The notes under the pieces were generated by a model. The model worked only from the letters and a program-made list of their open reading frames with translations. It did not search any database and had not been told where the DNA came from. Below are positions 14,835 through 62,225 of a DNA stretch of 64,000 nucleotides, piece after piece (position 1 is the first letter of the stretch; the number at the start of each line of letters is the position of its first letter). Location of the stretch: positions 16,223,513 through 16,287,512 of the forward strand of contig CM067315.1 in assembly GCA_034231615.1 (NCBI GenBank), in the 5' to 3' direction. The DNA comes from Meghimatium bilineatum (lineage: Eukaryota; Mollusca; Gastropoda; Stylommatophora; Philomycidae). A program made the translations under genes and the position numbers.

Positions 14835-15160
14835 TCGTCATCATCATTATCATCAACAACATGATCATCGTTATCGTTATCATTACTATCGTCGTCATTA
14901 TAATACTTATCATTACCATCATTATTGGAATAATCGATACGACCATTATTATACTGATTACTATGCTCAGCATCCTCACCATCTTTATTATAATCTTTAT
15001 TATAATCAGCATTACAATAATCATAACCGTAATCATTATTATTTTCATCATAACCATCACGTTAATATCGTCACTATCATCACCAAAACCGTTATCAGCA
15101 TCATTACAAGCATCATCATAATTATAATTACTAATATCATCACCATAGTCACCATAGTCG
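14835..15160. repeat. ATC/ATT/ACC-rich imperfect microsatellite, left half
   Basis: Imperfect trinucleotide tract (ATCATC, ATTATC, ACCATC). It resumes at 16,219 after a LINE insertion, so it was one tract before. Confidence 0.92.
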
Positions 15161-24982: not shown

Positions 24983-25084
24983 GAGAATTGTCCTGTTTAG
25001 TTTTATTGTGTGTTTTTTTATATATACTTTTTATATATTTTTATTAATAGGCAAGGTAAGTGTTTTAGTAACCTGTTTAATTCA

Positions 25085-32034: not shown

Positions 32035-32933
32035 CATTTTTGCTTGGTCAGAAGACAATAGTGTCTACCTTTTGTTCGGTCAGAAGACAATAGTGTCTAC
32101 TTTTGCTTGGTCAGAAGACAGTAGTGTCTACTTTTTGCTTGATCAGAAAGTAGTGTCTACTTTTGTTTGGTCAAAACACAATAGTGTCTACTTTTAAATA
32201 GTCCGAAGATAGTAGTGTCTACTTTTTACTTGGTCAGAAAACTGTAAAGTCTACTTTTGCTTGGTCAGAAGACATAATTGTCTACTTTTGCTTGGTCAGA
32301 AGACATAATTGTCTACTTTTGATTGCTAAGAAGAAATAATTGTCTACTTTTGATTGCTAAGAAGACATAATTGTCTACTTTTGATTGGTCAGAAGACATA
32401 ATTGTCTACTTTTGATTGGTCAGAAGACATAATTGTCTACTTTTGATTGGTCAGAAGACATAATTGTCTACTTTTGATTGGTAAGAAGAAATAATTGTCT
32501 ACTTTTGATTGCTAAGAAGAAATAATTGTCTACTTTTGATTGCTAAGAAGACATAATTGTCTACTTTTGATTGGTCAGAAGACATAATTGTCTACTTTTG
32601 ATTGGTCAGAAGACATAATTGTCTACTTTTGATTGGTCAGAAGACATAATTGTCTACTTTTCATTGGTAAGAAGACATAATTGTCTACTTTTGATTGGTA
32701 AGAAGAAATAATTGTCTACTTTTGATTGCTAAGAAGACATAATTGTCTACTTTTGATTGGTCAGAAGACATAATTGTCTACTTTTGATTGGTCAGAAGAC
32801 ATAATTGTCTACTTTTGATTGGTCAGAAGACATAATTGTCTACTTTTGATTGGTCAGAAGACATAATTGTCTACTTTTGATTGGTCAGAAGGCAAAATTG
32901 TCTACTTTTGATTGGTCAGAAGACATAATTGTC
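32035..32933. repeat. 31-bp minisatellite running into a gap
   Basis: About 29 units of CTTTTGATTGGTCAGAAGAC plus ATAATTGTCTA. The left edge units are diverged. Inner units vary only at GGTC/GCTA/GGTA and AGACA/AGAAA. These variants recur as blocks, suggesting multi-unit duplication of about 250 bp. The right end is cut by Ns. Confidence 0.96.
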
Positions 32934-33033
32934 NNNNNNNNNNNNNNNNNNNNNNNNNNNNNNNNNNNNNNNNNNNNNNNNNNNNNNNNNNNNNNNNNNN
33001 NNNNNNNNNNNNNNNNNNNNNNNNNNNNNNNNN
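32934..33033. other. Assembly gap (100 N)
   Basis: Exactly 100 N inside or at the end of the 31-bp array. A round-number gap usually means unknown length, so the array is probably longer. Confidence 0.98.
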
Positions 33034-37312: not shown

Positions 37313-37579
37313 TGCGCATAGCGCAGTGGTTAGCGCACTGGTTTTCGCATACGAGTGGTCCTGGGTTCATTCCTCATTTGAGGCGAAAATGTTTTTCAGA
37401 ACGCAATGGCTCCCGGGTCGACCCAGCCTTAAATGGGTACCGGATTTTTCCGGGAAGTAAAGACTGCGAGGGAAAGAAGATGGCTACCGCCCTCATTTTC
37501 AGAGCCTTTGAAATGTGAGATCGCTAATATCTCATACCCGTACGGCATTAATAAATTCTATGGCTTACTTTACTTTACT
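37313..37579 (+). mobile_element. tRNA-derived SINE (copy 3); contains the macro-duplication breakpoint
   Basis: GCGCATAGCGCAGTGGTTAG (A box region), GGGTTCATTCC (B box), then the GGGTCGACCCAGCC…AAATGGGTACC body, and a 3' end of AATAAATTCTATGG followed by a CTTTACTTTAC tail. It shares the body and tail logic with copies 1 and 2 but belongs to another subfamily. From 37,526 onward its last ~54 bp also begin copies 2 and 3 of the macro-unit. Confidence 0.82.
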
Positions 37580-37639
37580 GCTAAATTACTAAATTATATC
37601 AATAATTCAGCGAACGCACTGCTATATTATATTATTAAA

Positions 37640-39703
37640 TTTCAAAACAATGTACATCTACACCAATAGAAAAAAACAATTTTGCAGAATATACTACATA
37701 ATTGCGGGTAACCCTCCCCCCACCCGGCTTTAGAGCGTTATGACTAATCCAAGCTATTTAAATAGTGTATAAAAACATTATTGTTTACATCAACTTTTGT
37801 TAAACTATTCCTCCGCCCTCTCCCTTCTCCTTTGCTGACAGCTGTCAAACTTATTCCGACCCTCTCCCCCCTCCCCCTCTAAATTGTTGACGTTACTTAT
37901 GGACATCCTCTTATTGCTTGAAGCTACAGATTTACGTGCTATGATCGGTGCTCTCGTCAGACGTTGTGTCGCTCTTTTAGGGGAAGAAATAATTTTGAAT
38001 ATTGGGTAACTCGAGTTCACTGAAGTAAATCCTCTATGCATTTCCAAAATACGAACACGTCAAAGAGATGTTTATCATGGAGGTCGTTGGGCTAGAATTA
38101 ACTTCAGCACTGTATGCATAAATTGTATGATTAAAAGCATTGATAATATAATTATATTAACGTCAACTGCATAAAGAGAGTAGACTTTATCAAAAGAGTT
38201 GATTTTTATTTAAAATATATATAAACTTCAAACATGAAGCATACATTAATCTCGCGTGGCATTCCTAGTCCTTGTGTGTGTGTGCTAGAAAACATGAATG
38301 GGTGCGTGTGTGTGTGTGTGTGTTAGTGTTTGCGTATTCGTGTGATCGTCTTTCTCGTTTTCATGCTCTTGTGTGCATGTTTGTCTGCTTTGTTTGTGAT
38401 TGTTCAATGATGTGTTTGTGCTTTTTCACTAATCTAATATAATTCGTTTTATTGTGTGATATTATTCGTGCTAGTGTGATATTATTCGTGCTAGTGAGAT
38501 ATTATTCGTGTTAGTGTGTAATAATATTTGTGCTAGAGTGTGATTTTATTCGTGCTAGTGTGTGATATTAGTTGTGCTAGTGTGTAATAATATTTGTGTT
38601 AGAGTGTGATATTATTCGTGCTAGTGTGATATTATTCGTGCTAGTGTGTAATAATATTTGTGCTAGAGTGTGATAGTATTCGTGCTAGTGTGTAATATTA
38701 TTTGTGCTAGTGTGATACGTTTCCATTTTTACTGTAACATTTGTTTTAATGTGGAAAAATATGTGCGAACGTATATGTGTACAAAAACGTGTCAGTGTTT
38801 ATGTGTATTAACGTGTGGAAAAATGTAAGAATGTGTATATTCCATGGCCATCTAACTACAAGGATAATTATAGTTATAGATTATAATAGAAGGCATTGCC
38901 ACGTCACATGAACAGTTGGTTATAAGACATACACTTACGGAATTACTTTTAAATCACTGATATTTCCTATATGTTTTTGCTATACTGATGAAAATATGTC
39001 ATATTGGTTATATAATCCTTGAATAATTTTCTCTATCAGCGCCGTAGATACGTATTCATTAAGGGAGTTGTTATCTTTAAACGAAGGAAATTTTACCATT
39101 ATATTCGTGAGTAATTATACTTTCATGTATATGACATTTTGATGACTTTTTGGAAATCGCTACAGGGTCGAAGGGAAGAATGAATCTTCCCCAACTCTGC
39201 AGTTTACGGATTTATTGCCCAGTATAGCCATAAAATGTATCATCTTGAAGACAAACGACCATACCTACACTGTAGAAACGTGAATAGAAAACATATGGTA
39301 GGTTTTCCTTAGTGGAGTGGTTAAGCCATTCACCATGTTCTCACGCGATAGAAGAATCGAATCTTTCTCATTACGTATTGTTTACAGTTTAGAGCGTTTT
39401 GGAGATCCCTGGTGTTTATCGAGTGAAGGTATATGGTGATATCTTAGTTGTCCTATTGACATGAATCTTTCCTCTTTGTTGAGAATAACGGTGTATATAT
39501 GGTAAAACCCGAGTACAATGCAGTCAATCATCTAACCTTCTCAACCTTTTCAAAATTAGGTAGACATTACCTCATGGAGGTCACTCCTTGAAGTGGAGAT
39601 GCGACTTAGTTTTGTCAACATAGGCTGGAAACTAAGATTGATCGGATCCTTTCTGACAACGAGGAGGAACGCAGTCGTACTAAGCAATCACTGAAGTTGA
39701 GGC
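37640..39703. other. Low-copy block of macro-unit 1
   Basis: No gene. C-rich MITE-like blocks at 37,690-37,880, GT-rich tracts at 38,270-38,325 and the 22-bp repeat at 38,450-38,715. A minus-strand 80-codon frame (37,805-38,047) recurs in the other copies only because the DNA does. The same block lies at 44,354-46,418 and 50,053-52,117. Confidence 0.6.
38450..38715. repeat. ~22-bp minisatellite in unit 1
   Basis: TGTGATATTATTCGTGCTAG and TGTAATAATATTTGTGCTAG variants, about 12 units of 20-24 bp. Copies at 45,164-45,429 and 50,863-51,128. Confidence 0.92.
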
Positions 39704-42700
39704 GTAGATACCAGTAGTAGATACCAGTAGTAGATAACAGTAGTAGATACCAGTCGTACATACACGTCGTAGATACCAGTAGTAGATACCAGTAGTAGAT
39801 ACAATTAGTAGATAACAGTAGTAGATACAAGTCGTAGATACCAGTAGTAGATACCAGTAGTAAATACAAATAGTAGATACCAGTAGTAGATACCTGTAGT
39901 AGATACCAGTAGTAGATAGCAATAGTAGATACCAGTAGTAGATACCTGTAGTAGATAACAGTAGTAGATAGCAATAGTAGATACCAGTAGAAGATACCTG
40001 TAGTAGATACCAGTAGTAGATACCAGTAGTAGATACCAGTAGTAGATACCAGTAGTAGATAGCAATAGTAGATACAAGTCGTAGATACAAGTAGTAGATA
40101 CAAGTAGTAGATACAAGTAGTAGATAGCAATAGTAGATACAAGTAGTAAATACCAGTAGCAGATACCATTAGTAGATACCATTAGTAGATACCAGTAGTA
40201 GATACCAGTAGTAGATACCAGTAGTAGATACCAGTAGTAGATACCAGTAGTAGATACCAGTAGTAGATAGAAGTAGTAGATACAAGTCGTAGATACCAGT
40301 AGAAGATACAAGTAGTAGATAACAGTAGTAGATACCAGTAGTAGATACTAGTAGTAGATACCAGTAGTAGATACCAGTAGTAGATACCAGTAGTATATAG
40401 AAGTAGTAGATACAAGTAGTAGTTACCAGTAGTAGATACCAGTAGTAGATACCAGTAGTAGATAACAGTAGTAGATACAAGTCGTAGATACAAGTAGTAG
40501 ATACAAGTAATAGATAGCAATAGTAGATACAAGTAGTAAATACCAGTAGCAGATACCATTAGTAGATACCATTAGTAGATACCAGTAGTAGATACCAGTA
40601 GTAGATACCAGTAGTAGATACCAGTAGTAGATACCAGTAGTAGATACCAGTAGTAGATACCAGTAGTAGATAACAGTAGTAGATAGAAGTAGTAGATACA
40701 AGTCGTAGATACCAGTAGAAGATACAAGTAGTAGATAACAGTAGAAGATACCAGTAGTAGATACCAGTAGTAGATACCAGTAGTAGATACCAGTAGTAGA
40801 TACCAGTAGTAGATAGAAGTAGTAGATACCAGTAGTAGATACCATTAGTAGATACCAGTAGTAGATACCAGTAGTAGATAACAGTAGTAGATACCAGTAG
40901 TAGATACCAGTAGTAGATACCAGTAGTAGATACCAGTAGTAGATACCAGTAGTAGATAGAAGTAGTAGATACAAGTAGTAGATACAAGTCGTAGATACCA
41001 GTAGAAGATGCAAGTAGTAGATACCAGTAGTAGATAACAGTAGTAGATACAAATAGTAGATACCAGTAGTAGATACCAGTAGTAGATACCAGTAGTAGAT
41101 ACCAGTAGTAGATACCAGTAGTAGATAACAGTAGTAGATACCAGTAGAAGATACAAGTAGAAGATACCAGTAGTAGATAACTGTAGTAGATAACAGTAGT
41201 AGATACCAGTAGTAGATACCAGTAGTAGATACCAGTAGTAGATACCAGTAGTAGATACCAGTAGTAGATAACAGTAGTAGATACCAGTAGAAGATACAAG
41301 TAGTAGATACCAGTAGTAGATAACAGTAGTAGATACCAGTAGTAGATACCAGTAGTAGATAACAGTAGTAGATACAAATAGTAGATAACAGTAGTAGATA
41401 CCAGTAGAAGATACAAGTATTAGATACCAGTAGTAGATAACAGTAGTAGATAACAGTATTAGATACCAGTAGTAGATACCAGTAGTAGATACCAGTAGTA
41501 GATACCAGTAGTAGATACAAGTCGTAGATACCAGTAGAAGATACAAGTAGTAGATAACAGTAGAAGATACCAGTAGTAGATACCAGTAGTAGATACCAGT
41601 AGTAGATACCAGTAGTAGATACCAGTAGTAGATAGAAGTAGTAGATACCAGTAGTAGATACCATTAGTAGATACCAGTAGTAGATACCAGTAGTAGATAA
41701 CAGTAGTAGATACCAGTAGTAGATACCAGTAGTAGATACCAGTAGTAGATACCAGTAGTAGATACCAGTAGTAGATAGAAGTAGTAGATACAAGTAGTAG
41801 ATACAAGTCGTAGATACCAGTAGAAGATGCAAGTAGTAGATACCAGTAGTAGATAACAGTAGTAGATACAAATAGTAGATACCAGTAGTAGATACCAGTA
41901 GTAGATACCAGTAGTAGATACCAGTAGTAGATACCAGTAGTAGATAACAGTAGTAGATACCAGTAGAAGATACAAGTAGAAGATACCAGTAGTAGATAAC
42001 TGTAGTAGATAACAGTAGTAGATACCAGTAGTAGATACCAGTAGTAGATACCAGTAGTAGATACCAGTAGTAGATACCAGTAGTAGATAACAGTAGTAGA
42101 TACCAGTAGAAGATACAAGTAGTAGATACCAGTAGTAGATAACAGTAGTAGATACCAGTAGTAGATACCAGTAGTAGATAACAGTAGTAGATACAAATAG
42201 TAGATAACAGTAGTAGATACCAGTAGAAGATACAAGTATTAGATACCAGTAGTAGATAACAGTAGTAGATAACAGTATTAGATACCAGTAGTAGATACCA
42301 GTAGTAGATACCAGTAGTAGATACCAGTAGTAGATAACAGTAGTAGATACCAGTAGAAGATACAAGTAGTAGATACCAGTAGTAGATAACAGTAGTAGAT
42401 ACCAGTAGTAGATACCAGTAGTAGATAACAGTAGTAGATACAAATAGTAGATAGCAGTAGTAGATACCAGTAGTAGATACAAGTCGTAGATACCAGTAGT
42501 AGATACCAGTAGTAGATACCATTAGTAGATACCAGTAGTAGATACCAGTAGTAGATACCAGTAGTAGATACCAGTAGTAGATACCAGTAGTAGATAGAAG
42601 TAGTAGATACAAGTAGTAGATACAAGTCGTAGATACCAGTAGAAGATACAAGTAGTAGATACCAGTAGTAGATACCAGTAGTAGATACCAGTAGTAGATA

Positions 42701-43254
42701 CCAGTAGTAGATACCAGTAGTAGATACCAGTAGTAGATACCAGTAGTAGATACAAGTAGTAGATACAAGTCGTAGATACCAGTAGAAGATACAAGTAGTA
42801 GATACCAGTAGTAGATAGCAGTAGTAGATACAAATAGTAGATACCATTAGTAGATACCAGTAGTAGATACCAGTAGTAGATACCAGTAGTAGATACCAGT
42901 AGTAGATACCAGTAGTAGATACCAGTAGTAGATAGAAGTAGTAGATACAAGTAGTAGATACAAGTCGTAGATACCAGTAGTAGATACAAATAGTAGATAC
43001 CAGTAGTAGATACCAGTAGTAGATACCAGTAGTAGATACCAGTAGTAGATACCAGTAGTAGATACCATTAGTAGATAGAAGTAGTAGATACAAGTAGTAG
43101 ATACAAGTCGTAGATACCAGTAGAAGATACAAGTAGTAGATACCAGTAGTAGATACCAGTAGTAGATAACAGTAGTAGATACAAATAGTAGATACCATTA
43201 GTAGATACCAGTAGTAGATACCAGTAGTAGATACCAGTAGTAGATACCAGTAGT
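39704..43254. repeat. 13-bp satellite, array 1 (3,551 bp, ~273 units)
   Basis: Unit ATACCAGTAGTAG with recurrent variants (ataaCagtagtag, atacAagtagtag, ataGAagtagtag, atacAagtCgtag, ataccagtagAag, ataccaTtagtag, ataGcaAtagtag). The minus-strand unit CTACTACTGGTAT has no stop in any frame, giving the long reading YLLLVSTTGIYYW. An 819-bp (63-unit) block is duplicated in tandem: markers at 40,698, 41,003 and 41,042 recur at 41,517, 41,822 and 41,861. Confidence 0.98.
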
Positions 43255-43279
43255 ACGAACATTTCTTGATAGCAAATTT

Positions 43280-43550
43280 TAAGCCAAGACTGATTCCATC
43301 ACCTTTGTGTCCAAGTTGGCAGGCAGCACAGAATGGTTCCGTCACTTTTGTGTCCATGTGGGCAGGCAGCACTGAATGGTTCCATCACCTTTGTGTCCAA
43401 GTGGGCAGGTAGCACAGAATGGTTCCATCACCTTTGTGTCCAAGTGGGCAGGTAGCACAGAATGGTTCCATCACCTGTGTGTCCAAGTGGGCAGGTAGAA
43501 CACTATGGTTCCATCACCTTCGTGTCCAAGTGGGCAGGCAACACACTCTG
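43280..43550. repeat. 43-bp minisatellite in unit 1, ~6 copies
   Basis: GGTTCCATCACCTTTGTGTC plus CAAGTGGGCAGGTAGCACAGAAT. The copies in units 2 and 3 are at 48,979-49,249 and 54,821-55,091. Confidence 0.95.
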
Positions 43551-43974
43551 TTAAACATGCTCTGCAAGACTAAATTACCGTAGACGAGTTTAGAGAGGAA
43601 CACTGGCACACAGAGATGTATATCTACAGAGAGCTTTATGTCATCATTGAGGAGAATTACATCAGTATGTATATATGAAACCGTCCGTACTGTGTAGACA
43701 TGTTTATCTGTCAACAAGAAGAAGATGAGAAATACCTGAGTAATCGCCATCAATAATTGCATTTATTACGATGTTCTTAATCACCACCGTTATTATTGAC
43801 ATCGCAAACCATCATCTATCACACCACCATGGTCCTCAAATTGAATGTGTGCTTTAATTGTTGATTGTTTCATTCCCCAGCTTGATAACTTTTGTCATTT
43901 TAATTACTGACATTTATTGAATGATGATGTGTCAAGAATCACCACTCTCTGTCATTATCAAAATCGTTCTCACA

Positions 43975-44239
43975 CTTTGATTGCACAATTTTCGTTCACA
44001 CACGCACTCAATATTACTGTCCAATGTGCGTGCACACCCGTTCTCACTATCTCTGTATAATGAGTGTGCACACAAGCTCTCAGTGTCACTGTCCAATCAT
44101 TGTGCACACCAGTTCTCACTTTTACTGCCCAATGTGCGTCCACGCTCTTTCTTACTATCCACTGTCCAATGTGAGTGCACAACAGTTACTATTATCACTG
44201 TCCATTGCGCGTACAAAAATGTTCTCACTACCACTGCTC
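43975..44239. repeat. Diverged edge of the 36-bp satellite in unit 1
   Basis: About seven diverged units with GTTCTCACTAT..CTGTCCAATG words. The same edge occurs at 49,674-49,938 and, joined to the main array, at 55,515-55,780. Confidence 0.9.
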
Positions 44240-46418
44240 AATATCTCATACCCGTACGGCATTAATAAATTCTATGGCTTACTTTACTTTACTGCTAAAT
44301 TACTAAATTATATCAATAATTCAGCGAACGCACTGCTATATTATATTATTAAATTTCAAAACAATGTACATCTACACCAATAGAAAAAAACAATTTTGCA
44401 GAATATACTACATAATTGCGGGTAACCCTCCCCCCACCCGGCTTTAGAGCGTTATGACTAATCCAAGCTATTTAAATAGTGTATAAAAACATTATTGTTT
44501 ACATCAACTTTTGTTAAACTATTCCTCCGCCCTCTCCCTTCTCCTTTGCTGACAGCTGTCAAACTTATTCCGACCCTCTCCCCCCTCCCCCTCTAAATTG
44601 TTGACGTTACTTATGGACATCCTCTTATTGCTTGAAGGTACGGATTTACGTGCTATGATCGGTGCTCTCGTCAGACGTTGTGTCGCTCTTTTAGGGGAAG
44701 AAATAATTTTGAATATTGGGTAACTCGAGTTCACTGAAGTAAATCCTCTATGCATTTCCAAAATACGAACACGTCAAAGAGATGTTTATCATGGAGGTCG
44801 TTGGGCTAGAATTAACTTTAGCACTGTATGCATAAATTGTATGATTAAAAGCATTGATAATATAATTATATTAACGTCAACTGCATAAAGAGAGTAGACT
44901 TTATCAAAAGAGTTGATTTTTATTTAAAATATATATAAACTTCAAACATGAAGCATACATTAATCTCGCGTGGCATTCCTAGTCCTTGTGTGTGTGTGCT
45001 AGAAAACATGAATGGGTGCGTGTGTGTGTGTGTGTGTTAGTGTTTGCGTATTCGTGTGATCGTCTTTCTCGTTTTCATGCTCTTGTGTGCATGTTTGTCT
45101 GCTTTGTTTGTGATTGTTCAATCATGTGTTTGTGCTTTTTCACTAATCTAATATAATTCGTTTTATTGTGTGATATTATTCGTGCTAGTGTGATATTATT
45201 CGTGCTAGTGAGATATTATTCGTGTTAGTGTGTAATAATATTTGTGCTAGAGTGTGATTTTATTCGTGCTAGTGTGTGATATTAGTTGTGCTAGTGTGTA
45301 ATAATATTTGTGTTAGAGTGTGATATTATTCGTGCTAGTGTGATATTATTCGTGCTAGTGTGTAATAATATTTGTGCTAGAGTGTGATAGTATTCGTGCT
45401 AGTGTGTAATATTATTTGTGCTAGTGTGATACGTTTCCATTTTTACTGTAACATATGTTTTAATGTGGAAAAATATGTGCGAACGTATATGTGTACAAAA
45501 ACGTGTCGGTGTTTATGTGTATTAACGTGTGGAAAAATGTAAGAATGTGTATATTCCATGGCCATCTAACTACAAGGATAATTATAGTTATAGATTATAA
45601 TAGAAGGCATTGCCACGTCACATGAACAGTTGGTTATAAGACATACACTTACGGAATTACTTTTAAATCACTGATATTTCCTATATGTTTTTGCTATACT
45701 GATGAAAATATGTCATATTGGTTATATAATCCTTGAATAATTTTCTCTATCAGCGCCGTAGATACGTATTCATTAAGGGAGTTGTTATCTTTAAACGAAG
45801 GAAATTTTACCATTATATTCGTGAGTAATTATACTTTCATGTATATGACATTTTGATGACTTTTTGGAAATCGCTACAGGGTCGAAGGGAAGAATGAATC
45901 TTCCCCAACTCTGCAGTTTACGGATTTATTGCCCAGTATAGCCATAAAATGTATCATCTTGAAGACAAACGACCATACCTACACTGTAGAAACGTGAATA
46001 GAAAACATATGGTAGGTTTTCCTTAGTGGAGTGGTTAAGCCATTCACCATGTTCTCACGCGATAGAAGAATCGAATCTTTCTCATTACGTATTGTTTACA
46101 GTTTAGAGCGTTTTGGAGATCCCTGGTGTTTATCGAGTGAAGGTATATGGTGATATCTTAGTTGTCCTATTGACATGAATCTTTCCTCTTTGTTGAGAAT
46201 AACGGTGTATATATGGTAAAACCCGAGTACAATGCAGTCAATCATCTAACCTTCTCAACCTTTTCAAAATTAGGTAGACATTACCTCATGGAGGTCACTC
46301 CTTGAAGTGGAGATGCGACTTAGTTTTGTCAACATAGGGTGGAAACTAAGATTGATCGGATCCTTTCTGACAACGAGGAGGAACGCAGTCGTACTAAGCA
46401 ATCACTGAAGTTGAGGCG

Positions 46419-48953
46419 TAGATACCAGTAGTAGATACAGTAGTAGATACCAGTCGTAGATACCAGTAGTAGATACCAGTAGTAGATACCAGTAGTAGAT
46501 ACCAGTAGTAGATACCAGTCGTACATACACGTCGTAGATACCAGTAGTAGATACCAGTAGTAGATACAATTAGTAGATAACAGTAGTAGATACAAGTCGT
46601 AGATACCAGTAGTAGATACCAGTAGTAAATACAAATAGTAGATACCAGTAGTAGATACCTGTAGTAGATACCAGTAGTAGATAGCAATAGTAGATACCAG
46701 TAGTAGATACCTGTAGTAGATAACAGTAGTAGATAGCAATAGTAGATACCAGTAGAAGATACCTGTAGTAGATACCAGTAGTAGATACCAGTAGTAGATA
46801 CCAGTAGTAGATACCAGTAGTAGATAGCAATAGTAGATACAAGTCGTAGATACAAGTAGTAGATACAAGTAGTAGATACAAGTAGTAGATAGCAATAGTA
46901 GATACAAGTAGTAAATACCAGTAGCAGATACCATTAGTAGATACCATTAGTAGATACCAGTAGTAGATACCAGTAGTAGATACCAGTAGTAGATACCAGT
47001 AGTAGATACCAGTAGTAGATACCAGTAGTAGATACCAGTAGTAGATAGAAGTAGTAGATACAAGTCGTAGATACCAGTAGAAGATACAAGTAGTAGATAA
47101 CAGTAGTAGATACCAGTAGTAGATACCAGTAGTAGATACCCGTAGTAGATACCAGTAGTAGATACCAGTAGTAGATACCAGTAGTATATAGAAGTAGTAG
47201 ATACCAGTAGTAGATACCATTAGTAGTTACCAGTAGTAGATACCAGTAGTAGATACCAGTAGTAGATACCAGTAGTAGATACCAATAGTAGATACCAGTA
47301 GTAGATACCAGTAGTAGATAGAAGTAGTAGATACAAGTAGTAGATACAAGTCGTAGATACCAGTAGAAGATGCAAGTAGTAGATACCAGTAGTAGATAAC
47401 AGTAGTAGATACAAATAGTAGATACCAGTAGTAGATACCAGTAGTAGATACCAGTAGTAGATACCAGTAGTAGATACCAGTAGTAGATACCAGTAGTAGA
47501 TAACAGTAGTAGATACCAGTAGAAGATACAAGTAGAAGATACCAGTAGTAGATAACAGTAGTAGATAACAGTAGTAGATACCAGTAGTAGATACCAGTAG
47601 TAGATACCAGTAGTAGATACCAGTAGTAGATACCAGTAGTAGATAACAGTAGTAGATACCAGTAGAAGATACAAGTAGTAGATACCAGTAGTAGATAACA
47701 GTAGTAGATACCAGTAGTAGATACCAGTAGTAGATACAAGTAGTAGATACAAGTCGTAGATACCAGTAGAAGATACAAGTAGAAGATACAAGTAGTAGAT
47801 ACCAGTAGTAGATAACAGTAGTAGATACCAGTAGTAGATACCAGTAGTAGATACCAGTAGTAGATACCAGTAGTAGATACTAGTAGTAGATAACAGTAGT
47901 AGATACCAGTAGAAGATACAAGTATTAGATACCAGTAGTAGATAACAGTAGTAGATAACAGTATTAGATACCAGTAGTAGATACCAGTAGTAGATACCAG
48001 TAGTAGATACCAGTAGTAGATAACAGTAGTAGATACCAGTAGAAGATACAAGTAGTAGATACCAGTAGTAGATAACAGTAGTAGATACCAGTAGTAGATA
48101 CCAGTAGTAGATAACAGTAGTAGATACAAATAGTAGATAGCAGTAGTAGATACCAGTAGTAGATACAAGTCGTAGATACCAGTAGTAGATACCAGTAGTA
48201 GATACCATTAGTAGATACCAGTAGTAGATACCAGTAGTAGATACCAGTAGTAGATACCAGTAGTAGATACCAGTAGTAGATAGAAGTAGTAGATACAAGT
48301 AGTAGATACAAGTCGTAGATACCAGTAGAAGATACAAGTAGTAGATACCAGTAGTAGATACCAGTAGTAGATACCAGTAGTAGATACCAGTAGTAGATAC
48401 CAGTAGTAGATACCAGTAGTAGATACCAGTAGTAGATACAAGTAGTAGATACAAGTCGTAGATACCAGTAGAAGATACAAGTAGTAGATACCAGTAGTAG
48501 ATAGCAGTAGTAGATACAAATAGTAGATACCATTAGTAGATACCAGTAGTAGATACCAGTAGTAGATACCAGTAGTAGATACCAGTAGTAGATACCAGTA
48601 GTAGATACCAGTAGTAGATACCAGTAGTAGATAGAAGTAGTAGATACAAGTAGTAGATACAAGTCGTAGATACCAGTAGTAGATACAAATAGTAGATACC
48701 AGTAGTAGATACCAGTAGTAGATACCAGTAGTAGATACCAGTAGTAGATACCAGTAGTAGATACCATTAGTAGATAGAAGTAGTAGATACAAGTAGTAGA
48801 TACAAGTCGTAGATACCAGTAGAAGATACAAGTAGTAGATACCAGTAGTAGATACCAGTAGTAGATAACAGTAGTAGATACAAATAGTAGATACCATTAG
48901 TAGATACCAGTAGTAGATACCAGTAGTAGATACCAGTAGTAGATACCAGTAGT
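46419..48953. repeat. 13-bp satellite, array 2 (2,535 bp, ~195 units)
   Basis: Same unit and variants as array 1, 1,016 bp shorter. That is essentially the whole length difference between copies 1 and 2. Confidence 0.97.
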
Positions 48954-48978
48954 ACGAACATTTCTTGATAGCAAATTT

Positions 48979-49249
48979 TAAGCCAAGACTGATTCCATCA
49001 CCTTTGTGTCCAAGTTGGCAGGCAGCACAGAATGGTTCCGTCACTTTTGTGTCCATGTGGGCAGGCAGCACTGAATGGTTCCATCACCTTTGTGTCCAAG
49101 TGGGCAGGTAGCACAGAATGGTTCCATCACCTTTGTGTCCAAGTGGGCAGGTAGCACAGAATGGTTCCATCACCTGTGTGTCCAAGTGGGCAGGTAGAAC
49201 ACTATGGTTCCATCACCTTCGTGTCCAAGTGGGCAGGCAACACACTCTG
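48979..49249. repeat. 43-bp minisatellite in unit 2
   Basis: Identical layout to 43,280-43,550. Confidence 0.95.
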
Positions 49250-52117
49250 TTAAACATGCTCTGCAAGACTAAATTACCGTAGACGAGTTTAGAGAGGAAC
49301 ACTGGCACACAGAGATGTATATCTACAGAGAGCTTTATGTCATCATTGAGGAGAATTACATCAGTATGTATATATGAAACCGTCCGTACTGTGTAGACAT
49401 GTTTATCTGTCAACAAGAAGAAGATGAGAAATACCTGAGTAATCGCCATCAATAATTGCATTTATTACGATGTTCTTAATCACCACCGTTATTATTGACA
49501 TCGCAAACCATCATCTATCACACCACCATGGTCCTCAAATTGAATGTGTGCTTTAATTGTTGATTGTTTCATTCCCCAGCTTGATAACTTTTGTCATTTT
49601 AATTACTGACATTTATTGAATGATGATGTGTCAAGAATCACCACTCTCTGTCATTATCAAAATCGTTCTCACACTTTGATTGCACAATTTTCGTTCACAC
49701 ACGCACTCAATATTACTGTCCAATGTGCGTGCACACCCGTTCTCACTATCTCTGTATAATGAGTGTGCACACAAGCTCTCAGTGTCACTGTCCAATCATT
49801 GTGCACACCAGTTCTCACTTTTACTGCCCAATGTGCGTCCACGCTCTTTCTTACTATCCACTGTCCAATGTGAGTGCACAACAGTTACTATTATCACTGT
49901 CCATTGCGCGTACAAAAATGTTCTCACTACCACTGCTCAATATCTCATACCCGTACGGCATTAATAAATTCTATGGCTTACTTTACTTTACTGCTAAATT
50001 ACTAAATTATATCAATAATTCAGCGAACGCACTGCTATATTATATTATTAAATTTCAAAACAATGTACATCTACACCAATAGAAAAAAACAATTTTGCAG
50101 AATATACTACATAATTGCGGGTAACCCTCCCCCCACCCGGCTTTAGAGCGTTATGACTAATCCAAGCTATTTAAATAGTGTATAAAAACATTATTGTTTA
50201 CATCAACTTTTGTTAAACTATTCCTCCGCCCTCTCCCTTCTCCTTTGCTGACAGCTGTCAAACTTATTCCGACCCTCTCCCCCCTCCCCCTCTAAATTGT
50301 TGACGTTACTTATGGACATCCTCTTATTGCTTGAAGGTACGGATTTACGTGCTATGATCGGTGCTCTCGTCAGACGTTGTGTCGCTCTTTTAGGGGAAGA
50401 AATAATTTTGAATATTGGGTAACTCGAGTTCACTGAAGTAAATCCTCTATGCATTTCCAAAATACGAACACGTCAAAGAGATGTTTATCATGGAGGTCGT
50501 TGGGCTAGAATTAACTTTAGCACTGTATGCATAAATTGTATGATTAAAAGCATTGATAATATAATTATATTAACGTCAACTGCATAAAGAGAGTAGACTT
50601 TATCAAAAGAGTTGATTTTTATTTAAAATATATATAAACTTCAAACATGAAGCATACATTAATCTCGCGTGGCATTCCTAGTCCTTGTGTGTGTGTGCTA
50701 GAAAACATGAATGGGTGCGTGTGTGTGTGTGTGTGTTAGTGTTTGCGTATTCGTGTGATCGTCTTTCTCGTTTTCATGCTCTTGTGTGCATGTTTGTCTG
50801 CTTTGTTTGTGATTGTTCAATCATGTGTTTGTGCTTTTTCACTAATCTAATATAATTCGTTTTATTGTGTGATATTATTCGTGCTAGTGTGATATTATTC
50901 GTGCTAGTGAGATATTATTCGTGTTAGTGTGTAATAATATTTGTGCTAGAGTGTGATTTTATTCGTGCTAGTGTGTGATATTAGTTGTGCTAGTGTGTAA
51001 TAATATTTGTGTTAGAGTGTGATATTATTCGTGCTAGTGTGATATTATTCGTGCTAGTGTGTAATAATATTTGTGCTAGAGTGTGATAGTATTCGTGCTA
51101 GTGTGTAATATTATTTGTGCTAGTGTGATACGTTTCCATTTTTACTGTAACATATGTTTTAATGTGGAAAAATATGTGCGAACGTATATGTGTACAAAAA
51201 CGTGTCGGTGTTTATGTGTATTAACGTGTGGAAAAATGTAAGAATGTGTATATTCCATGGCCATCTAACTACAAGGATAATTATAGTTATAGATTATAAT
51301 AGAAGGCATTGCCACGTCACATGAACAGTTGGTTATAAGACATACACTTACGGAATTACTTTTAAATCACTGATATTTCCTATATGTTTTTGCTATACTG
51401 ATGAAAATATGTCATATTGGTTATATAATCCTTGAATAATTTTCTCTATCAGCGCCGTAGATACGTATTCATTAAGGGAGTTGTTATCTTTAAACGAAGG
51501 AAATTTTACCATTATATTCGTGAGTAATTATACTTTCATGTATATGACATTTTGATGACTTTTTGGAAATCGCTACAGGGTCGAAGGGAAGAATGAATCT
51601 TCCCCAACTCTGCAGTTTACGGATTTATTGCCCAGTATAGCCATAAAATGTATCATCTTGAAGACAAACGACCATACCTACACTGTAGAAACGTGAATAG
51701 AAAACATATGGTAGGTTTTCCTTAGTGGAGTGGTTAAGCCATTCACCATGTTCTCACGCGATAGAAGAATCGAATCTTTCTCATTACGTATTGTTTACAG
51801 TTTAGAGCGTTTTGGAGATCCCTGGTGTTTATCGAGTGAAGGTATATGGTGATATCTTAGTTGTCCTATTGACATGAATCTTTCCTCTTTGTTGAGAATA
51901 ACGGTGTATATATGGTAAAACCCGAGTACAATGCAGTCAATCATCTAACCTTCTCAACCTTTTCAAAATTAGGTAGACATTACCTCATGGAGGTCACTCC
52001 TTGAAGTGGAGATGCGACTTAGTTTTGTCAACATAGGGTGGAAACTAAGATTGATCGGATCCTTTCTGACAACGAGGAGGAACGCAGTCGTACTAAGCAA
52101 TCACTGAAGTTGAGGCG

Positions 52118-54795
52118 TAGATACCAGTAGTAGATACAGTAGTAGATACCAGTCGTAGATACCAGTAGTAGATACCAGTAGTAGATACCAGTAGTAGATA
52201 CCAGTAGTAGATACCAGTCGTACATACACGTCGTAGATACCAGTAGTAGATACCAGTAGTAGATACAATTAGTAGATAACAGTAGTAGATACAAGTCGTA
52301 GATACCAGTAGTAGATACCAGTAGTAAATACAAATAGTAGATACCAGTAGTAGATACCTGTAGTAGATACCAGTAGTAGATAGCAATAGTAGATACCAGT
52401 AGTAGATACCTGTAGTAGATAACAGTAGTAGATAGCAATAGTAGATACCAGTAGAAGATACCTGTAGTAGATACCAGTAGTAGATACCAGTAGTAGATAC
52501 CAGTAGTAGATACCAGTAGTAGATAGCAATAGTAGATACAAGTCGTAGATACAAGTAGTAGATACAAGTAGTAGATACAAGTAGTAGATAGCAATAGTAG
52601 ATACAAGTAGTAAATACCAGTAGCAGATACCATTAGTAGATACCATTAGTAGATACCAGTAGTAGATACCAGTAGTAGATACCAGTAGTAGATACCAGTA
52701 GTAGATACCAGTAGTAGATACCAGTAGTAGATACCAGTAGTAGATAGAAGTAGTAGATACAAGTCGTAGATACCAGTAGAAGATACAAGTAGTAGATAAC
52801 AGTAGTAGATACCAGTAGTAGATACCAGTAGTAGATACCCGTAGTAGATACCAGTAGTAGATACCAGTAGTAGATACCAGTAGTATATAGAAGTAGTAGA
52901 TACCAGTAGTAGATACCATTAGTAGTTACCAGTAGTAGATACCAGTAGTAGATACCAGTAGTAGATACCAGTAGTAGATACCAATAGTAGATACCAGTAG
53001 TAGATACCAGTAGTAGATAGAAGTAGTAGATACAAGTAGTAGATACAAGTCGTAGATACCAGTAGAAGATGCAAGTAGTAGATACCAGTAGTAGATAACA
53101 GTAGTAGATACAAATAGTAGATACCAGTAGTAGATACCAGTAGTAGATACCAGTAGTAGATACCAGTAGTAGATACCAGTAGTAGATACCAGTAGTAGAT
53201 AACAGTAGTAGATACCAGTAGAAGATACAAGTAGAAGATACCAGTAGTAGATAACAGTAGTAGATAACAGTAGTAGATACCAGTAGTAGATACCAGTAGT
53301 AGATACCAGTAGTAGATACCAGTAGTAGATACCAGTAGTAGATAACAGTAGTAGATACCAGTAGAAGATACAAGTAGTAGATACCAGTAGTAGATAACAG
53401 TAGTAGATACCAGTAGTAGATACCAGTAGTAGATAACAGTAGTAGATACAAATAGTAGATAGCAGTAGTAGATAGCAGTAGTAGATACAAGTCGTAGATA
53501 CCAGTAGTAGATACCAGTAGTAGATACCATTAGTAGATACCAGTAGTAGATACCAGTAGTAGATACCAGTAGTAGATACCAGTAGTAGATACCAGTAGTA
53601 GATACCAGTAGTAGATACCAGCAGTAGATACAAGTAGTAGATACAAGTCGTAGATACCAGTAGAAGATACAAGTAGAAGATACAAGTAGTAGATACCAGT
53701 AGTAGATAACAGTAGTAGATACCAGTAGTAGATACCAGTAGTAGATACCAGTAGTAGATACCAGTAGTAGATACTAGTAGTAGATAACAGTAGTAGATAC
53801 CAGTAGAAGATACAAGTATTAGATACCAGTAGTAGATAACAGTAGTAGATAACAGTAGTAGATACCAGTAGTAGATACCAGTAGTAGATACCAGTAGTAG
53901 ATACCAGTAGTAGATAACAGTAGTAGATACCAGTAGAAGATACAAGTAGTAGATACTAGTAGTAGATAACAGTAGTAGATACCAGTAGTAGATACCAGTA
54001 GTAGATAACAGTAGTAGATACAAATAGTAGATAGCAGTAGTAGATACCAGTAGTAGATACAAGTCGTAGATACCAGTAGTAGATACCAGTAGTAGATACC
54101 ATTAGTAGATACCAGTAGTAGATACCAGTAGTAGATACCAGTAGTAGATACCAGTAGTAGATAGAAGTAGTAGATACAAGTAGTAGATACAAGTCGTAGA
54201 TACCAGTAGAAGATACCAGTAGTAGATACCAGTAGTAGATACCAGTAGTAGATACCAGTAGTAGATACCAGTAGTAGATACCAGTAGTAGATACAAGTAG
54301 TAGATACAAGTCGTAGATACCAGTAGAAGATACAAGTAGTAGATACCAGTAGTAGATAGCAGTAGTAGATACAAATAGTAGATACCATTAGTAGATACCA
54401 GTAGTAGATACCAGTAGTAGATACCAGTAGTAGATACCAGTAGTAGATACCAGTAGTAGATACCAGTAGTAGATAGAAGTAGTAGATACAAGTAGTAGAT
54501 ACAAGTCGTAGATACCAGTAGTAGATACAAATAGTAGATACCAGTAGTAGATACCAGTAGTAGATACCAGTAGTAGATACCAGTAGTAGATACCAGTAGT
54601 AGATACCATTAGTAGATACAAGTAGTAGATACAAGTAGTAGATACAAGTCGTAGATACCAGTAGAAGATACAAGTAGTAGATACCAGTAGTAGATACCAG
54701 TAGTAGATAACAGTAGTAGATACAAATAGTAGATACCATTAGTAGATACCAGTAGTAGATACCAGTAGTAGATACCAGTAGTAGATACCAGTAGT
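52118..54795. repeat. 13-bp satellite, array 3 (2,678 bp, 206 units)
   Basis: Starts like array 2 and ends with private variants. The extra 143 bp relative to array 2 is exactly 11 units. Confidence 0.97.
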
Positions 54796-54820
54796 ACGAA
54801 CATTTCTTGATAGCAAATTT

Positions 54821-55091
54821 TAAGCCAAGACTGATTCCATCACCTTTGTGTCCAAGTTGGCAGGCAGCACAGAATGGTTCCGTCACTTTTGTGTCCATGT
54901 GGGCAGGCAGCACTGAATGGTTCCATCACCTTTGTGTCCAAGTGGGCAGGTAGCACAGAATGGTTCCATCACCTTTGTGTCCAAGTGGGCAGGTAGCACA
55001 GAATGGTTCCATCACCTGTGTGTCCAAGTGGGCAGGTAGAACACTATGGTTCCATCACCTTCGTGTCCAAGTGGGCAGGCAACACACTCTG
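54821..55091. repeat. 43-bp minisatellite in unit 3
   Basis: Same layout as in units 1 and 2. Confidence 0.95.
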
Positions 55092-55514
55092 TTAAACATG
55101 CTCTGCAAGACTAAATTACCGTAGACGAGTTTAGAGAGGAACACTGGCACACAGAGATGTATATCTACAGAGAGCTTTATGTCATCATTGAGGAGAATTA
55201 CATCAGTATGTATATATGAAACCGTCCGTACTGTGTAGACATGTTTATCTGTCAACAAGAAGAAGATGAGAAATACCTGAGTAATCGCCATCAATAATTG
55301 CATTTATTACGATGTTCTTAATCACCACCGTTATTATTGACATCGCAAACCATCATCTATCACACCACCATGGTCCTCAAATTGAATGTGTGCTTTAATT
55401 GTTGATTGTTTCATTCCCCAGCTTGATAACTTTTGTCATTTTAATTACTGACATTTATTGAATGATGATGTGTCAAGAATCACCACTCTCTGTCATTATC
55501 AAAATCGTTCTCAC

Positions 55515-56885
55515 ACTTTGATTGCACAATTTTCGTTCACACATGCACTAAATATTACTGTCCAATGTGCGTGCACACCCGTTCTCACTATCTCTGTATA
55601 ATGAGTGTGCACACAAGCTCTCAGTGTCACTGTCCAATCATTGTGCACACCAGTTCTCACTGTTACTGCCCAATGTGCGTCCACGCTCTTTCTTACTATC
55701 CACTGTCCAATGTGAGTGCACAACAGTTACTATTATCACTGTCCATTGCGCGTACAAAAATGTTCTCACTACCACTGCTCAATGTGAGCCCATACTAGTT
55801 CTCACTACAACTGTTCAATGTGAGCCCATACTAGTTCTCACTACAACTGTTCAATGTGAGCCCATACTAGTTGCCACTACAACTGTTCAATGTGAGCCCA
55901 TACTAGTTCTCACTACAACTGTTCAATGTGAGCCCATACTAGTTGCCACTACAACTGTTCAATGTGAGCCCATACTAGTTCTCACTACAACTGTTCAATG
56001 TGAGGCCATACTAGTTCTCACTACAACTGTTCAATGTGAGCCCATACTAGTTCTCACTACAACTGTTCAATGTGAGCCCACACTAGTTCTCACTACCACT
56101 GCTCAGTGCGAGACCACACGGGTTTCTCTATCACTACTCAATGTGAGCCCATACTAGTTCTCACTACAACTGTTCAATGTGAGCCCATACTAGTTCTCAC
56201 TACAACTGTTCAATGTGAGCCCATACTAGTTGCCACTACAACTATTCAATGTGAGCCCATACTAGTTCTCACTACAACTGTTCACTGTGAGCCCATACTA
56301 GTTCTCACTACAACTGTTCAATGTGAGCCCATATTAGTTCTCACTACAACTGTCCAATGTGAGCCCATACTAGTTCTCACTACAACTGTTCAATGTGAGC
56401 CCATACTAGTTCTCACTACAACTGTTCAATGTGAGCCCATACTAGTTCTCACTACAACTGTTAAATGTGAGCCCACACTAGTTCTCACTACCACTGCTCA
56501 GTGCGGGACCACACGGGTTTCTCTATCACTACTCAATGTGAGCCCATACTAGTTCTCACTACAACTGTTCAATGTGAGCCCATACTAGTTGTCACTACAA
56601 CTGTTCAATGTGAGCCCATACTAGTTGTCACTACAACTGTTCAATGTGAGCCCATACTAGTTCTCACTACAACTGTTCAATGTGAGCCCACACTAGTTCT
56701 CACTACCACTGCTCAGTGCGAGACCACACGGGTTTCTCTATCACTACTCAATGTGAGCCCATACTAGTTCTCACTACAACTGTTCAATGTGAGCCCATAC
56801 TAGTTGTCACTACAACTGCTCAATGTGAGCCCATACTAGTTGCCACTACAACTGCTCAATGTGAGCCACCACACTAGTTCTCACT
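55515..56885. repeat. 36-bp satellite, variant subfamily (GAGCCCATACTAG)
   Basis: After the diverged edge units, about 30 units of AATGTGAGCCCATACTAGTT plus CTCACTACAACTGTTC. A distinctive unit with GACCACACGGGTTTCTC recurs near 56,110, 56,505 and 56,720, giving a higher-order period of roughly 200-400 bp. CTAGTTCTC/GCC/GTC variants mark sub-blocks. Confidence 0.95.
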
Positions 56886-59800
56886 ATCACTGCCCAATGT
56901 GCGTGGACACCAGTTCTCACTATCACTGACGTATGTGCGTGGACACCAGCTCTAACTATTTCTGCCGAATGTGCGTGGACACCAGTTCTCACTACTACTG
57001 CTCAATGTGCGTGGACACCAGTTCTCACTATCACTGCCCAATGTGCGTGGACACCAGTTCTCACTATCACTGCCGAATGTGCGTGGACACCAGTTCTCAC
57101 TATCACTGCCGAATGTGCGTGGACACCAGTTCTCACTATGTCTGCCCAATGTGCGTAAACACCAGTTCTCACTATCATTGCCGAATGTGCGTGGACACCA
57201 GTTCTCACTATCACTGCCGAATGTGCGTGGACACCAGTTCTCACTATTTCTGCCCAATGTTCGTGGACACCAGTTCTCACTATTTCTGCTCAATGTAAGT
57301 GGACACCAGTTCTCACTATTTCTGCTCCATGTGCGTGAACACCAGTTCTCACTATTTCTGCCCAATGTGCGTGGACACCAGTTCTCACTATTTCTGCCCA
57401 ATGTGCGTGAACACCAGTACTCACTATTTCTGCCCAATGTGCGTGGACACCAGTTCTCACTATTTCTGCCCAATGTGCGTGGACACCAGTTCTCACTATC
57501 ACTGCCGTATGTGCGTGGACACCAGTTCTCACTATTTCTGCTCAATGTGCGTGGACACCAGTTCTCACTATTTCTGCCCAATGTTCGTGGACACCAGTTC
57601 TCACTATTTCTGCCCAATGTGCGTGGACACCAGTTCTCACTATTTCTGCTCAATGTTCGTGGACACCAGTTCTCACTATTTCTGCCCAATGTGCGTGGAC
57701 ACCAGTTCTCACTATCACTGCCGTATGTGCGTGGACACCAGTTCTCACTATCACTGACGTATGTGCGTGGACACCAGCTCTAACTATTTCTGCCGAATGT
57801 GCGTGGACACCAGTTCTCACTACTACTGCTCAATGTGCGTGGACACCAGTTCTCACTATCACTGCCCAATGTGCGTGGACACCAGTTCTCACTATCACTG
57901 CCGAATGTGCGTGGACACCAGTTCTCACTATCACTGCCGAATGTGCGTGGACACCAGTTCTCACTATGTCTGCCCAATGTGCGTAAACACCAGTTCTCAC
58001 TATCATTGCCGAATGTGCGTGGACACCAGTTCTCACTATCACTGCCGAATGTGCGTGGACACCAGTTCTCACTATTTCTGCTCAATGTTCGTGGACACCA
58101 GTTCTCACTATTTCTGCTCAATGTAAGTGGACACCAGTTCTCACTATTTCTGCCCAATGTGCGTGGACACCAGTTCTCACTATCACTGCCGAATGTGCGT
58201 GGACACCAGTTCTCACTATCACTGTCGAATGTGCGTGGACACCAGTTCTCACTATTTCTGCCCAATGTGCGTGGACACCAGTTCTCACTACCACTGCTCC
58301 ATGTGCGTGGACACCAGTTCTCACTACCACTGCTCCATGTGCGTGAACACCAGTTCTCACTATTTCTGCCCAATGTGCGTGGACACCAGTTCTCACTATC
58401 ACTGCCGTATGTGCGTGGACACCAGTTCTCACTATCACTGACGTATGTGCGTGGACACCAGCTCTAACTATTTCTGCCGAATGTGCGTGTACACCAGTTC
58501 ACACTACTACTGCTCAATGTGCGCGGACACCAGTTCTCACTATCACTGCCCAATGTGCGTGGACACCAGTTCTCACTATCACTGCCGAATGTGCGTGGAC
58601 ACCAGTTCTCACTATCACTGCCGAATGTGCGTGGACACCAGTTCTCACTATTTCTGCTCAATGTTCGTGGACACCAGTTCTCACTATTTCTGCTCAATGT
58701 AAGTGGACACCAGTTCTCACTATTTCTGCTCCATGTGCGTGAACACCAGTTCTCACTATTTCTGCTCAATGTAAGTGGACACCAGTTCTCACTATTTCTG
58801 CTCAATGTTCGTGGACACCAGTTCTCACTATTTCTGCCCAATGTGCGTGGACACCAGTTCTCACTATTTCTGCCCAATGTGCGTGAACACCAGTACTCAC
58901 TATTTCTGCCCAATGTGCGTGGACACCAGTTCTCACTATTTCTGCCCAATGTGCGTGGACACCAGTTCTCACTATCACTGCCGTATGTGCGTGGACACCA
59001 GTTCTCACTATTTCTGCTCAATGTGCGTGGACACCAGTTCTCACTATTTCTGCCCAATGTTCGTGGACACCAGTTCTCACTACCACTGCTCCATGTGCGT
59101 GAACACCAGTTCTCACTATTTCTGCCCAATGTGCGTGGACACCAGTTCTCACTATATCTGCCCAATGTGCGTGAACACCAGTACTCACTATTTCTGCCCA
59201 ATGTGCGTGGACACCATCTCACTATTTCTGCCCAATGTGCGTGGACACCAGTTCTCACTATTTCTGCCCAATGTGCGTGGACACCAGTTCTCACTACCAC
59301 TGCTCCATGTGCGTGGACACCAGTTCTCACTACCACTGCTCCATGTGCGTGAACACCAGTTCTCACTATTTCTGCCCAATGTGCGTGGACACCAGTTCTC
59401 ACTATCACTGCCGTATGTGCGTGGACACCAGTTCTCACTATCACTGACGTATGTGCGTGGACACCAGCTCTAACTATTTCTGCCGAATGTGCGTGTACAC
59501 CAGTTCACACTACTACTGCTCAATGTGCGCGGACACCAGTTCTCACTATCACTGCCCAATGTGCGTGGACACCAGTTCTCACTATCACTGCCGAATGTGC
59601 GTGGACACCAGTTCTCACTATCACTGCCGAATGTGCGTGGACACCAGTTCTCACTATTTCTGCTCAATGTTCGTGGACACCAGTTCTCACTATTTCTGCT
59701 CAATGTAAGTGGACACCAGTTCTCACTATTTCTGCTCCATGTGCGTGAACACCAGTTCTCACTATTTCTGCCCAATGTGCGTGGACACCAGTTCTCACTA

Positions 59801-62225
59801 TTTCTGCCCAATGTGCGTGAACACCAGTACTCACTATTTCTGCCCAATGTGCGTGGACACCAGTTCTCACTATTTCTGCCCAATGTGCGTGGACACCAGT
59901 TCTCACTATCACTGCCGTATGTGCGTGGACACCAGTTCTCACTATTTCTGCTCAATGTGCGTGGACACCAGTTCTCACTATTTCTGCCCAATGTTCGTGG
60001 ACACCAGTTCTCACTACCACTGCTCCATGTGCGTGAACACCAGTTCTCACTATTTCTGCCCAATGTGCGTGGACACCAGTTCTCACTATATCTGCCCAAT
60101 GTGCGTGAACACCAGTACTCACTATTTCTGCCCAATGTGCGTGGACACCATCTCACTATTTCTGCCCAATGTGCGTGGACACCAGTTCTCACTATCACTG
60201 CCGTATGTGCGTGGACACCAGTTCTCACTATTTCTGCTCAATGTGCGTGGACACCAGTTCTCACTATTTCTGCCCAATGTTCGTGGACAGCAGTTCTCAC
60301 TATTTCTGCCCAATGTGCGTGGACACCAGTTCTCACTATTTCTGCTCAATGTACGTGGACACCAGTTCTCACTATTTCTGCCCAATGTGCGTGGACACCA
60401 GTTCTCACTATCACTGCCGTATGTGCGTGGACACCAGTTCTCACTATCACTGACGTATGTGCGTGGACACCAGCTCTAACTATTTCTGCCGAATGTGCGT
60501 GGACACCAGTTCACACTACTACTGCTCAATGTGCGCGGACACCAGTTCTCACTATCACTGCCCAATGTGCGTGGACACCAGTTCTCACTATCACTGCCGA
60601 ATGTGCGTGGACACCAGTTCTCACTATCACTGCCGAATGTGCGTGGACACCAGTTCTCACTATTTCTGCCCAATGTGCGTGGACACCAGTTCTCACTATG
60701 TCTGCCCAATGTGCGTGGACACCAGTTCTCACTATCACTGCCGAATGTGCGTGGACACTAGTTCTCACTATCACTGCCGAATGTGCGTGGACACCAGTTC
60801 TCACTATTTCTGCTCAATGTTCGTGGACACCAGTTCTCACTATTTCTGCTCAATGTACGTGGACACCAGTTCTCACTATTTCTGCCCAATGTGCGTGGAC
60901 ACCAGTTCTCACTATCACTGCAGAATGTGCGTGGACACCAGTTCTCACTATTTCTGCCCAATGTGCGTGAACACCAGTACTCACTATTTCTGCCCAATGT
61001 GCGTGGACACCAGTTCTCACTATTTCTGCCCAATGTGCGTGGACACCAGTTCTCACTATCACTGCCGTATGTGCGTGGACACCAGTTCTCACTATTTCTG
61101 CTCAATGTGCGTGGACACCAGTTCTCACTATTTCTGCCCAATGTTCGTGGACAGCAGTTCTCACTATTTCTGCCCAATGTGCGTGGACACCAGTTCTCAC
61201 TATTTCTTCTCAATGTACGTGGACACCAGTTCTCACTATTTCTGCCCAATGTGCGTGGACACCAGTTCTCACTATCACTGCCGTATGTGCGTGGACACCA
61301 GTTCTCACTATCACTGACGTATGTGCGTGGACACCAGCTCTAACTATTTCTGCCGAATGTGCGTGGACACCAGTTCACACTACTACTGCTCAATGTGCGC
61401 GGACACCAGTTCTCACTATCACTGCCCAATGTGCGTGGACACCAGTTCTCACTATCACTGCCGAATGTGCGTGGACACCAGTTCTCACTATCACTGCCGA
61501 ATGTGCGTGGACACCAGTTCTCACTATTTCTGCCCAATGTGCGTGGACACCAGTTCTCACTATGTCTGCCCAATGTGCGTGGACACCAGTTCTCACTATC
61601 ACTGCCGAATGTGCGTGGACACTAGTTCTCACTATCACTGCCGAATGTGCGTGGACACCAGTTCTCACTATTTCTGCTCAATGTTCGTGGACACTAGTTC
61701 TCACTATTTCTGCTCAATGTACGTGGACACCAGTTCTCACTATTTCTGCCCAATGTGCGTGGACACCAGTTCTCACTATCACTGCAGAATGTGCGTGGAC
61801 ACCAGTTCTCACTATCACTGCCGTATGTGCGTGGACACCAGTTCTAACTATTTCTGCTGAATGTGCGTGGACACCAGTTCTCACTACCACTGCTCAATGT
61901 GCGTGGACACCAGTTCTCACTATCACTGCCCAATGTGCGTGGACACCAGTTCTCACTATCACTGCCGAATGTGCGTGGACACCAGTTCTCACTATCACTG
62001 TCGAATATGCGTGGACACCAGTTCTCACTATTTCTGCCCAATGTGCGTGGACACCAGTTCTCACTATTTCTGCCCAATGTGCGTAGACACCAGTTCTCAC
62101 TATCACTGCCCAATGTGACTTGGACACTAGTTCTCACTATCACTGCCGAATGTGCGTGGGCACTATTTTTCACTATATCGGCCCAATGTAAGCCCACTCT
62201 ATTTTTTACTACCACTGCTCAAAAT
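56886..62225. repeat. 36-bp satellite, main array with higher-order structure
   Basis: About 148 units of GTGCGTGGACACCAGTTCTC plus ACTATCACTGCCCAAT. A marker (TGACGTATGTGCGTGG then ACACCAGCTCTAACTATT) recurs at 56,929, 57,757, 58,441, 59,447, 60,453 and 61,317, so higher-order lengths are 828, 684, 1,006, 1,006 and 864 bp. Four are not equal but three are multiples of 36. The two 1,006-bp blocks both carry the same 2-bp deletion (ACACCATCTCAC at 59,213 and 60,147). Units at the right edge (62,100-62,225) are diverged. The 12-codon period keeps five frames open; no gene. Confidence 0.97.

Follow-up and report, generated by a model that had tools for sequence, protein, structure and literature searches.

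Tandem arrays with long units have been described in several systems. For the yeast CUP1 arrays, the initial duplication is described as having arisen at junctions with minimal homology (3 bp or less) or none, and unequal crossover as one way in which existing arrays change their repeat number (PMC4232551). The expansion of human megasatellites with interspersed elements in their unit is ascribed to unequal crossing-over (PMC2588610). The locus analyzed here, in the slug Meghimatium bilineatum, resembles the human megasatellites in its several-kb tandem units with dispersed repeats and in an array longer than 10 kb, while the human examples described have about six or more units and the slug array has three (PMC2588610). 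Its history, as proposed below, would resemble the one described for CUP1, with a low-homology first join and a later unequal crossover (PMC4232551). Unlike the CUP1 units, which carry a gene, the slug units show no indication of one, and the second exchange would have taken place inside an internal minisatellite. A literature search on titles and abstract openings returned nothing about this locus. The structure is of a known kind, a tandem segmental duplication or macrosatellite, caught at an early stage; the level of detail in its sequence record is unusual, while the process itself is not.

The window, by which we mean the whole analyzed stretch of 64,000 nucleotides (C18:16223513-16287512), comes from an assembly of 1.61 Gb in 32 contigs. 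A sequence-only reading of it had placed the starts of three tandem units at 37526, 44240 and 49939. These starts are exact, with AATATCTCATACCCG occurring three times on the plus strand of the whole window and not at all on the minus strand, and the unit lengths (6714, 5699 and 5842 bp) and the repeated order of parts were likewise confirmed. Each unit consists of a left block L of 2178 bp, which includes a 22-bp array, an array A of a 13-bp satellite, and a right block R of 984 bp, which contains a 43-bp array and has degenerate monomers of a 36-bp satellite at its end. The units and their arrays are as follows.

37526..44239, plus strand: macro-unit 1 (L1-A1-R1), from block comparison and repeat coding
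44240..49938, plus strand: macro-unit 2, recombinant, with L as in unit 3, R as in unit 1 and an array that switches between them, from block comparison, array tiling and the one-switch test
49939..55780, plus strand: macro-unit 3 (L2-A3-R2), continuing into the 36-bp satellite, from block comparison and repeat coding
39704..43255, plus strand: 13-bp array A1, 273 repeats, with a perfect internal duplication of 63 repeats, from repeat coding
46418..48954, plus strand: 13-bp array A2, 195 repeats, mosaic, from repeat coding, tiling and the one-switch test
52117..54796, plus strand: 13-bp array A3, 206 repeats, from repeat coding

Such threefold repetition lies far beyond chance. As in a macrosatellite, where units of at least 1 kb follow each other head to tail with high identity, three direct units of 5.7-6.7 kb are present, and any two of them differ at 0 to 7 positions in L (2178 bp) and at 0 to 3 in R (984 bp). 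The differences in unit length were also correctly assigned by the sequence-only reading to the 13-bp satellite. The 143 bp by which copy 3 exceeds copy 2 are 11 repeats (206 vs 195), and the 1015 bp by which copy 1 exceeds copy 2 are 78 repeats (273 vs 195) and 1 bp, the latter because the second repeat of copies 2 and 3 has 12 bp. In A1 a block of 63 repeats (819 bp) stands twice in a row without a mismatch, which accounts for part of the excess of copy 1. No coding function is indicated in the units, where frames of more than 110 codons at least partly overlie satellite arrays. The Pfam scan took in eight frames, all outside the units, and returned three retroelement remnants, two of them fragments of a reverse transcriptase and one of an RNase H (15158-16204, 26977-27732 and 25001-25828).

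The low-copy parts do differ by only a few bases, as had been claimed. We count 7/2178 positions in the left blocks and 3/984 in the right blocks, and they are distributed in an ordered way. The L block of unit 2 is identical to that of unit 3, both differing from unit 1 at the same seven positions; the R block of unit 2 is identical to that of unit 1, both differing from unit 3 at three. Unit 2 thus has no base of its own in the 3162 positions of L and R, and matches unit 3 at 7/7 left sites and unit 1 at 3/3 right sites. If positions were mixed, the chance that seven sites of one kind precede three of the other would be 1/120. The three R-block differences, at offsets 747, 753 and 865, span about 120 bp, and two are 6 bp apart; with this clustering they may represent fewer than three events. 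The same change of affinity is seen within the array. When A2 was tiled with longest exact matches, it resolved into two A3 runs (101 repeats, then 18) followed by two A1 runs (50, then 26), that is, 119 repeats like unit 3 and 76 like unit 1 overall. The 18-repeat exact match between A2 and A3 is absent from A1. A3 has 15 extra repeats between the 101- and 18-repeat runs matched by A2, and A2 has one repeat more than A1 between its 50- and 26-repeat A1-like runs. For a one-switch test the arrays were split into repeats, each coded by its variant, and scored with gap costs, exactly one switch being permitted. Built from A3 on the left and A1 on the right, A2 costs 9.3; from A3 alone it costs 28.5, from A1 alone 69.0 and in the reverse order 28.5. 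The same test on the other arrays lowers the cost of A3 from 28.5 to 20.4 and of A1 from 69.0 to 57.3. A2 is therefore the best recombinant of the three arrays, since the switch gains less for A3 and leaves A1 costly. The most likely place of the switch is the following.

47886..47963, plus strand: likely switch tract, six repeats common to A1 and A3, from exact-match tiling

The A3-specific repeats end just before this tract (the last at 47873-47885), and the A1-specific ones start just after it, at 47964. An unequal crossover is expected to add a unit that is a recombinant of both its neighbours with one switch point. Unit 2 has this composition, with a switch point that is not unique under gap-cost scoring, where it falls after repeat 101, 113 or 114 and so could also lie 12 repeats further left; we prefer the later place because of the 18-repeat exact match to A3. 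As read from the sequence, the mosaic is what would be expected if unit 2 of one chromatid had crossed over with unit 1 of another. The sequence-only reading, which had proposed a recent triplication or an assembly artefact, had the right pair of options. Its three copies are not equivalent, however, the middle one being the left of copy 3 joined to the right of copy 1, so the history is better described as a duplication with one later unequal exchange than as one triplication.

The edges of the array show where the duplicated segment was cut, and the features concerned are these.

37319..37575, plus strand: SINE-like dispersed element with approximate ends and tail (ACTTT)n, with relatives elsewhere in the genome
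44237..44242, plus strand: unit 1/unit 2 junction, edge of the 36-bp satellite joined to the SINE tail, AAT shared, from sequence comparison
49936..49941, plus strand: unit 2/unit 3 junction, same as the unit 1/unit 2 junction, from sequence comparison
55553..62189, plus strand: 36-bp satellite array, the first degenerate monomers of which close each macro-unit, from repeat and edge comparison

The left breakpoint falls in the 3' part of the SINE-like element, which extends onto the left flank. With a 286-bp query for this element, 40 of 5045 candidates were scored, and 39 of them are other places with 91-93% identity. All of the fetched relatives (19/19) match over the range 37319/37320 to 37570/37575, which includes the breakpoint, and have different flanks; the first ~11 bases found in many relatives are not recognisable in the copy at 37319..37575. 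The element may derive from a tRNA, given a likeness to A and B boxes; ARAGORN in its bacterial setting found no tRNA gene in it, and Rfam gave one match, far under the cut-off (14.4 vs 40 bits). A hairpin as cause of the left breakpoint was rejected: a stem TGAGAT...ATCTCA is present and folds no better than shuffled sequences (z -0.32; 63/200 as good). The right breakpoint lies among the edge monomers of the 36-bp array. This satellite comprises two subfamilies (~55779-56820 and 56871-62189) and is organized in higher-order blocks, in which exact runs measure 538 bp (lag 1006), 486 bp (lag 864), 447 bp (lag 934) and 357 bp (lag 828). Three 2-kb bins from 56001 have a GC content of 0.48-0.50 and the other bins one of 0.33-0.42.

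Both internal junctions and both parent sequences have AAT in common, and at the right edge the shared sequence extends by these three bases beyond the claimed end, as far as 55783, which leaves an uncertainty of 3 bp in each breakpoint. At least 3 shared bp were found in 1086/18126 random cut-point pairs (about 6%). With such sharing common at random cuts, the word microhomology describes the join, and the mechanism is not proven by AAT. We also rejected as evidence the 8-mer AATGTGAG, found at the right breakpoint and also 14 bp to the left of the left one, an 8-mer being shared within such windows in 878/20000 random draws (the total includes draws that were passed over for lying less than 3 kb apart or for containing N).

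Three low-copy stretches of the unit (1000, 989 and 984 bp; the queries left out ~190 bp of the L block, within its 22-bp array) have full-length matches only at the three units, among 40 candidates scored per search. Shorter pieces of the low-copy blocks, at 69-96% identity, are scattered over other contigs, and the low-copy DNA therefore holds old interspersed repeats. Both satellites are private to the locus in the 1.61-Gb assembly at the mismatch levels searched: all 361 genome-wide matches of a 13-bp trimer (up to 2 mismatches) are in the window, with starts from 39704 to 54755, and so are all 105 of the main-subfamily consensus of the 36-bp satellite (up to 3 mismatches). When the seven left-block differences were compared with dispersed relatives, three sites were covered, by one relative each; two of them favour the base of unit 1 as ancestral and one that of units 2 and 3, which is too few to give a direction.

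From the sequence organization we consider it likely that the locus is an embryonic macrosatellite, formed by a young tandem segmental duplication that has reached two to three copies, and that its recombinant middle arose through unequal crossover. An ancestral single copy fits, because the SINE-like element is uninterrupted on the left flank and the 36-bp array continues on the right. Judging from the junctions, a break or a replication template switch would first have connected the 36-bp satellite, at its edge, with the upstream 3' part of the SINE-like element, the two sharing AAT where they met, and everything between the joined points would have been duplicated. The two copies would then have diverged, as seen in the 10/3162 differing positions of L and R (about 0.3%), with the 13-bp array turning over faster. 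Finally, chromatids or homologues would have paired one unit out of register and crossed over inside the 13-bp array, which may account for the observed mosaic L1-A1-R1 / L2-(A3/A1)-R1 / L2-A3-R2. Later change in the arrays would comprise the loss of 15 repeats from A2, or their gain in A3, and the one further repeat. The segment of about 5.7 kb that is now present twice has 0 base differences, where the 10/3162 rate predicts ~18 (for 5683 bp), and the chance of this at that rate is about 1.6e-8. The second step is therefore far younger than the first, or the second copy of the segment is an assembly overlap. The 10 differences may perhaps be allelic if the first duplication joined two homologues, in which case no age can be drawn from them. 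Host function is not needed as an explanation. If real, the locus is a nearly complete sequence record of the birth of a multi-kb tandem array, in which a near-homology-free join made two copies and an exchange in an embedded minisatellite made three. It also suggests a quick test at such loci: comparison of the middle copy with its neighbours, and a search for differences in repeat number of a kind not left by an assembly overlap.

The first alternative is that only two copies are real and that, when two overlapping contigs or reads were joined during assembly, their overlap inside the 13-bp array was left unmerged, so that A1tail-R1-L2-A3head was written twice. This would give exactly the same mosaic order and the same base-perfect identity, so the pattern alone is not proof of a real array. 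False duplications are named among the commonest assembly errors, and those of the homotype kind, in long-read assemblies, are described as near-identical duplicates of about read length, often at contig boundaries (PMC8081667). The slug duplicate is like them in its near identity and its read-like length, and a 100-N gap (32934-33033) adjoins a tandem array nearby. It is unlike them, as so described, in its repeat-number differences and in having no N gap, the count of N inside 37526-55780 being 0 (PMC8081667). A false duplicate should equal its source apart from read error; here the two versions of the segment have 0 base differences but differ by 15 repeats (195 bp) and by 1 repeat, which is unexpected for an overlap within one haplotype. 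An overlap of two haplotypes should also show base differences, unless the animal is locally homozygous. The repeat register is, moreover, kept across the arrays, 669/674 repeats being exactly 13 bp, and of the other five three are array ends. The 15-repeat and 1-repeat differences tilt the choice to a real, recent exchange, and we regard the overlap error as possible but unlikely, and less likely than ordinary unequal crossing-over.

It has also to be considered whether the 13-bp satellite, private to this locus, might be a hot spot of recombination and thereby drive the formation of the macrosatellite. This would include a nested series of recent tandem duplications, from the 13-bp repeat through the 819-bp block of A1 and the ~830-1000-bp blocks of the 36-bp satellite to the 6-kb unit, and as a whole we hold it to be rather doubtful. 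Gene conversion is frequent in tandem arrays, and the three copies could have arisen together or earlier, with unit 2 later matched to its neighbours by conversion. This would, however, require two tracts from opposite sides to meet in the same array where a single crossover covers everything, and seems to us very improbable. A self-amplifying mobile or rolling-circle element, such as a Helitron carrying internal minisatellites, can be rejected with near certainty: the unit does begin within a dispersed element and contain tandem repeats, but its ends are not element ends, its start lying inside the SINE-like element, no whole unit is dispersed (the searched stretches match in full length only here, among the 40 candidates scored per search), and the 361 matches of the 13-bp satellite are confined to the window.

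Tandem arrays (period of at least 7) cover 39% of the window and 19% of it outside 37526-62189; in four 10-kb stretches taken as controls, the share is 5-23%. Direct duplicates of at least 500 bp that lie at least 1 kb apart were absent from these four stretches, which are too short to give a base rate. In another slug, Deroceras laeve, tandem repeats are stated to have raised the masked part by 28.39% of the genome (PMC12506671), and on that figure a minisatellite-rich landscape is not unusual for a pulmonate. The 100-N gap immediately follows a 31-bp tandem array (32038-32933) and is probably an unsized scaffold gap beside a satellite. Elsewhere in the assembly, a stretch that resembles part of COX1, seemingly that of a pulmonate land snail or slug, and has 5 TGA codons in frame lies in a large contig (C2:121989805-121990428) and is followed by apparent tandem repeats in the translation; it is probably a mitochondrial insertion.
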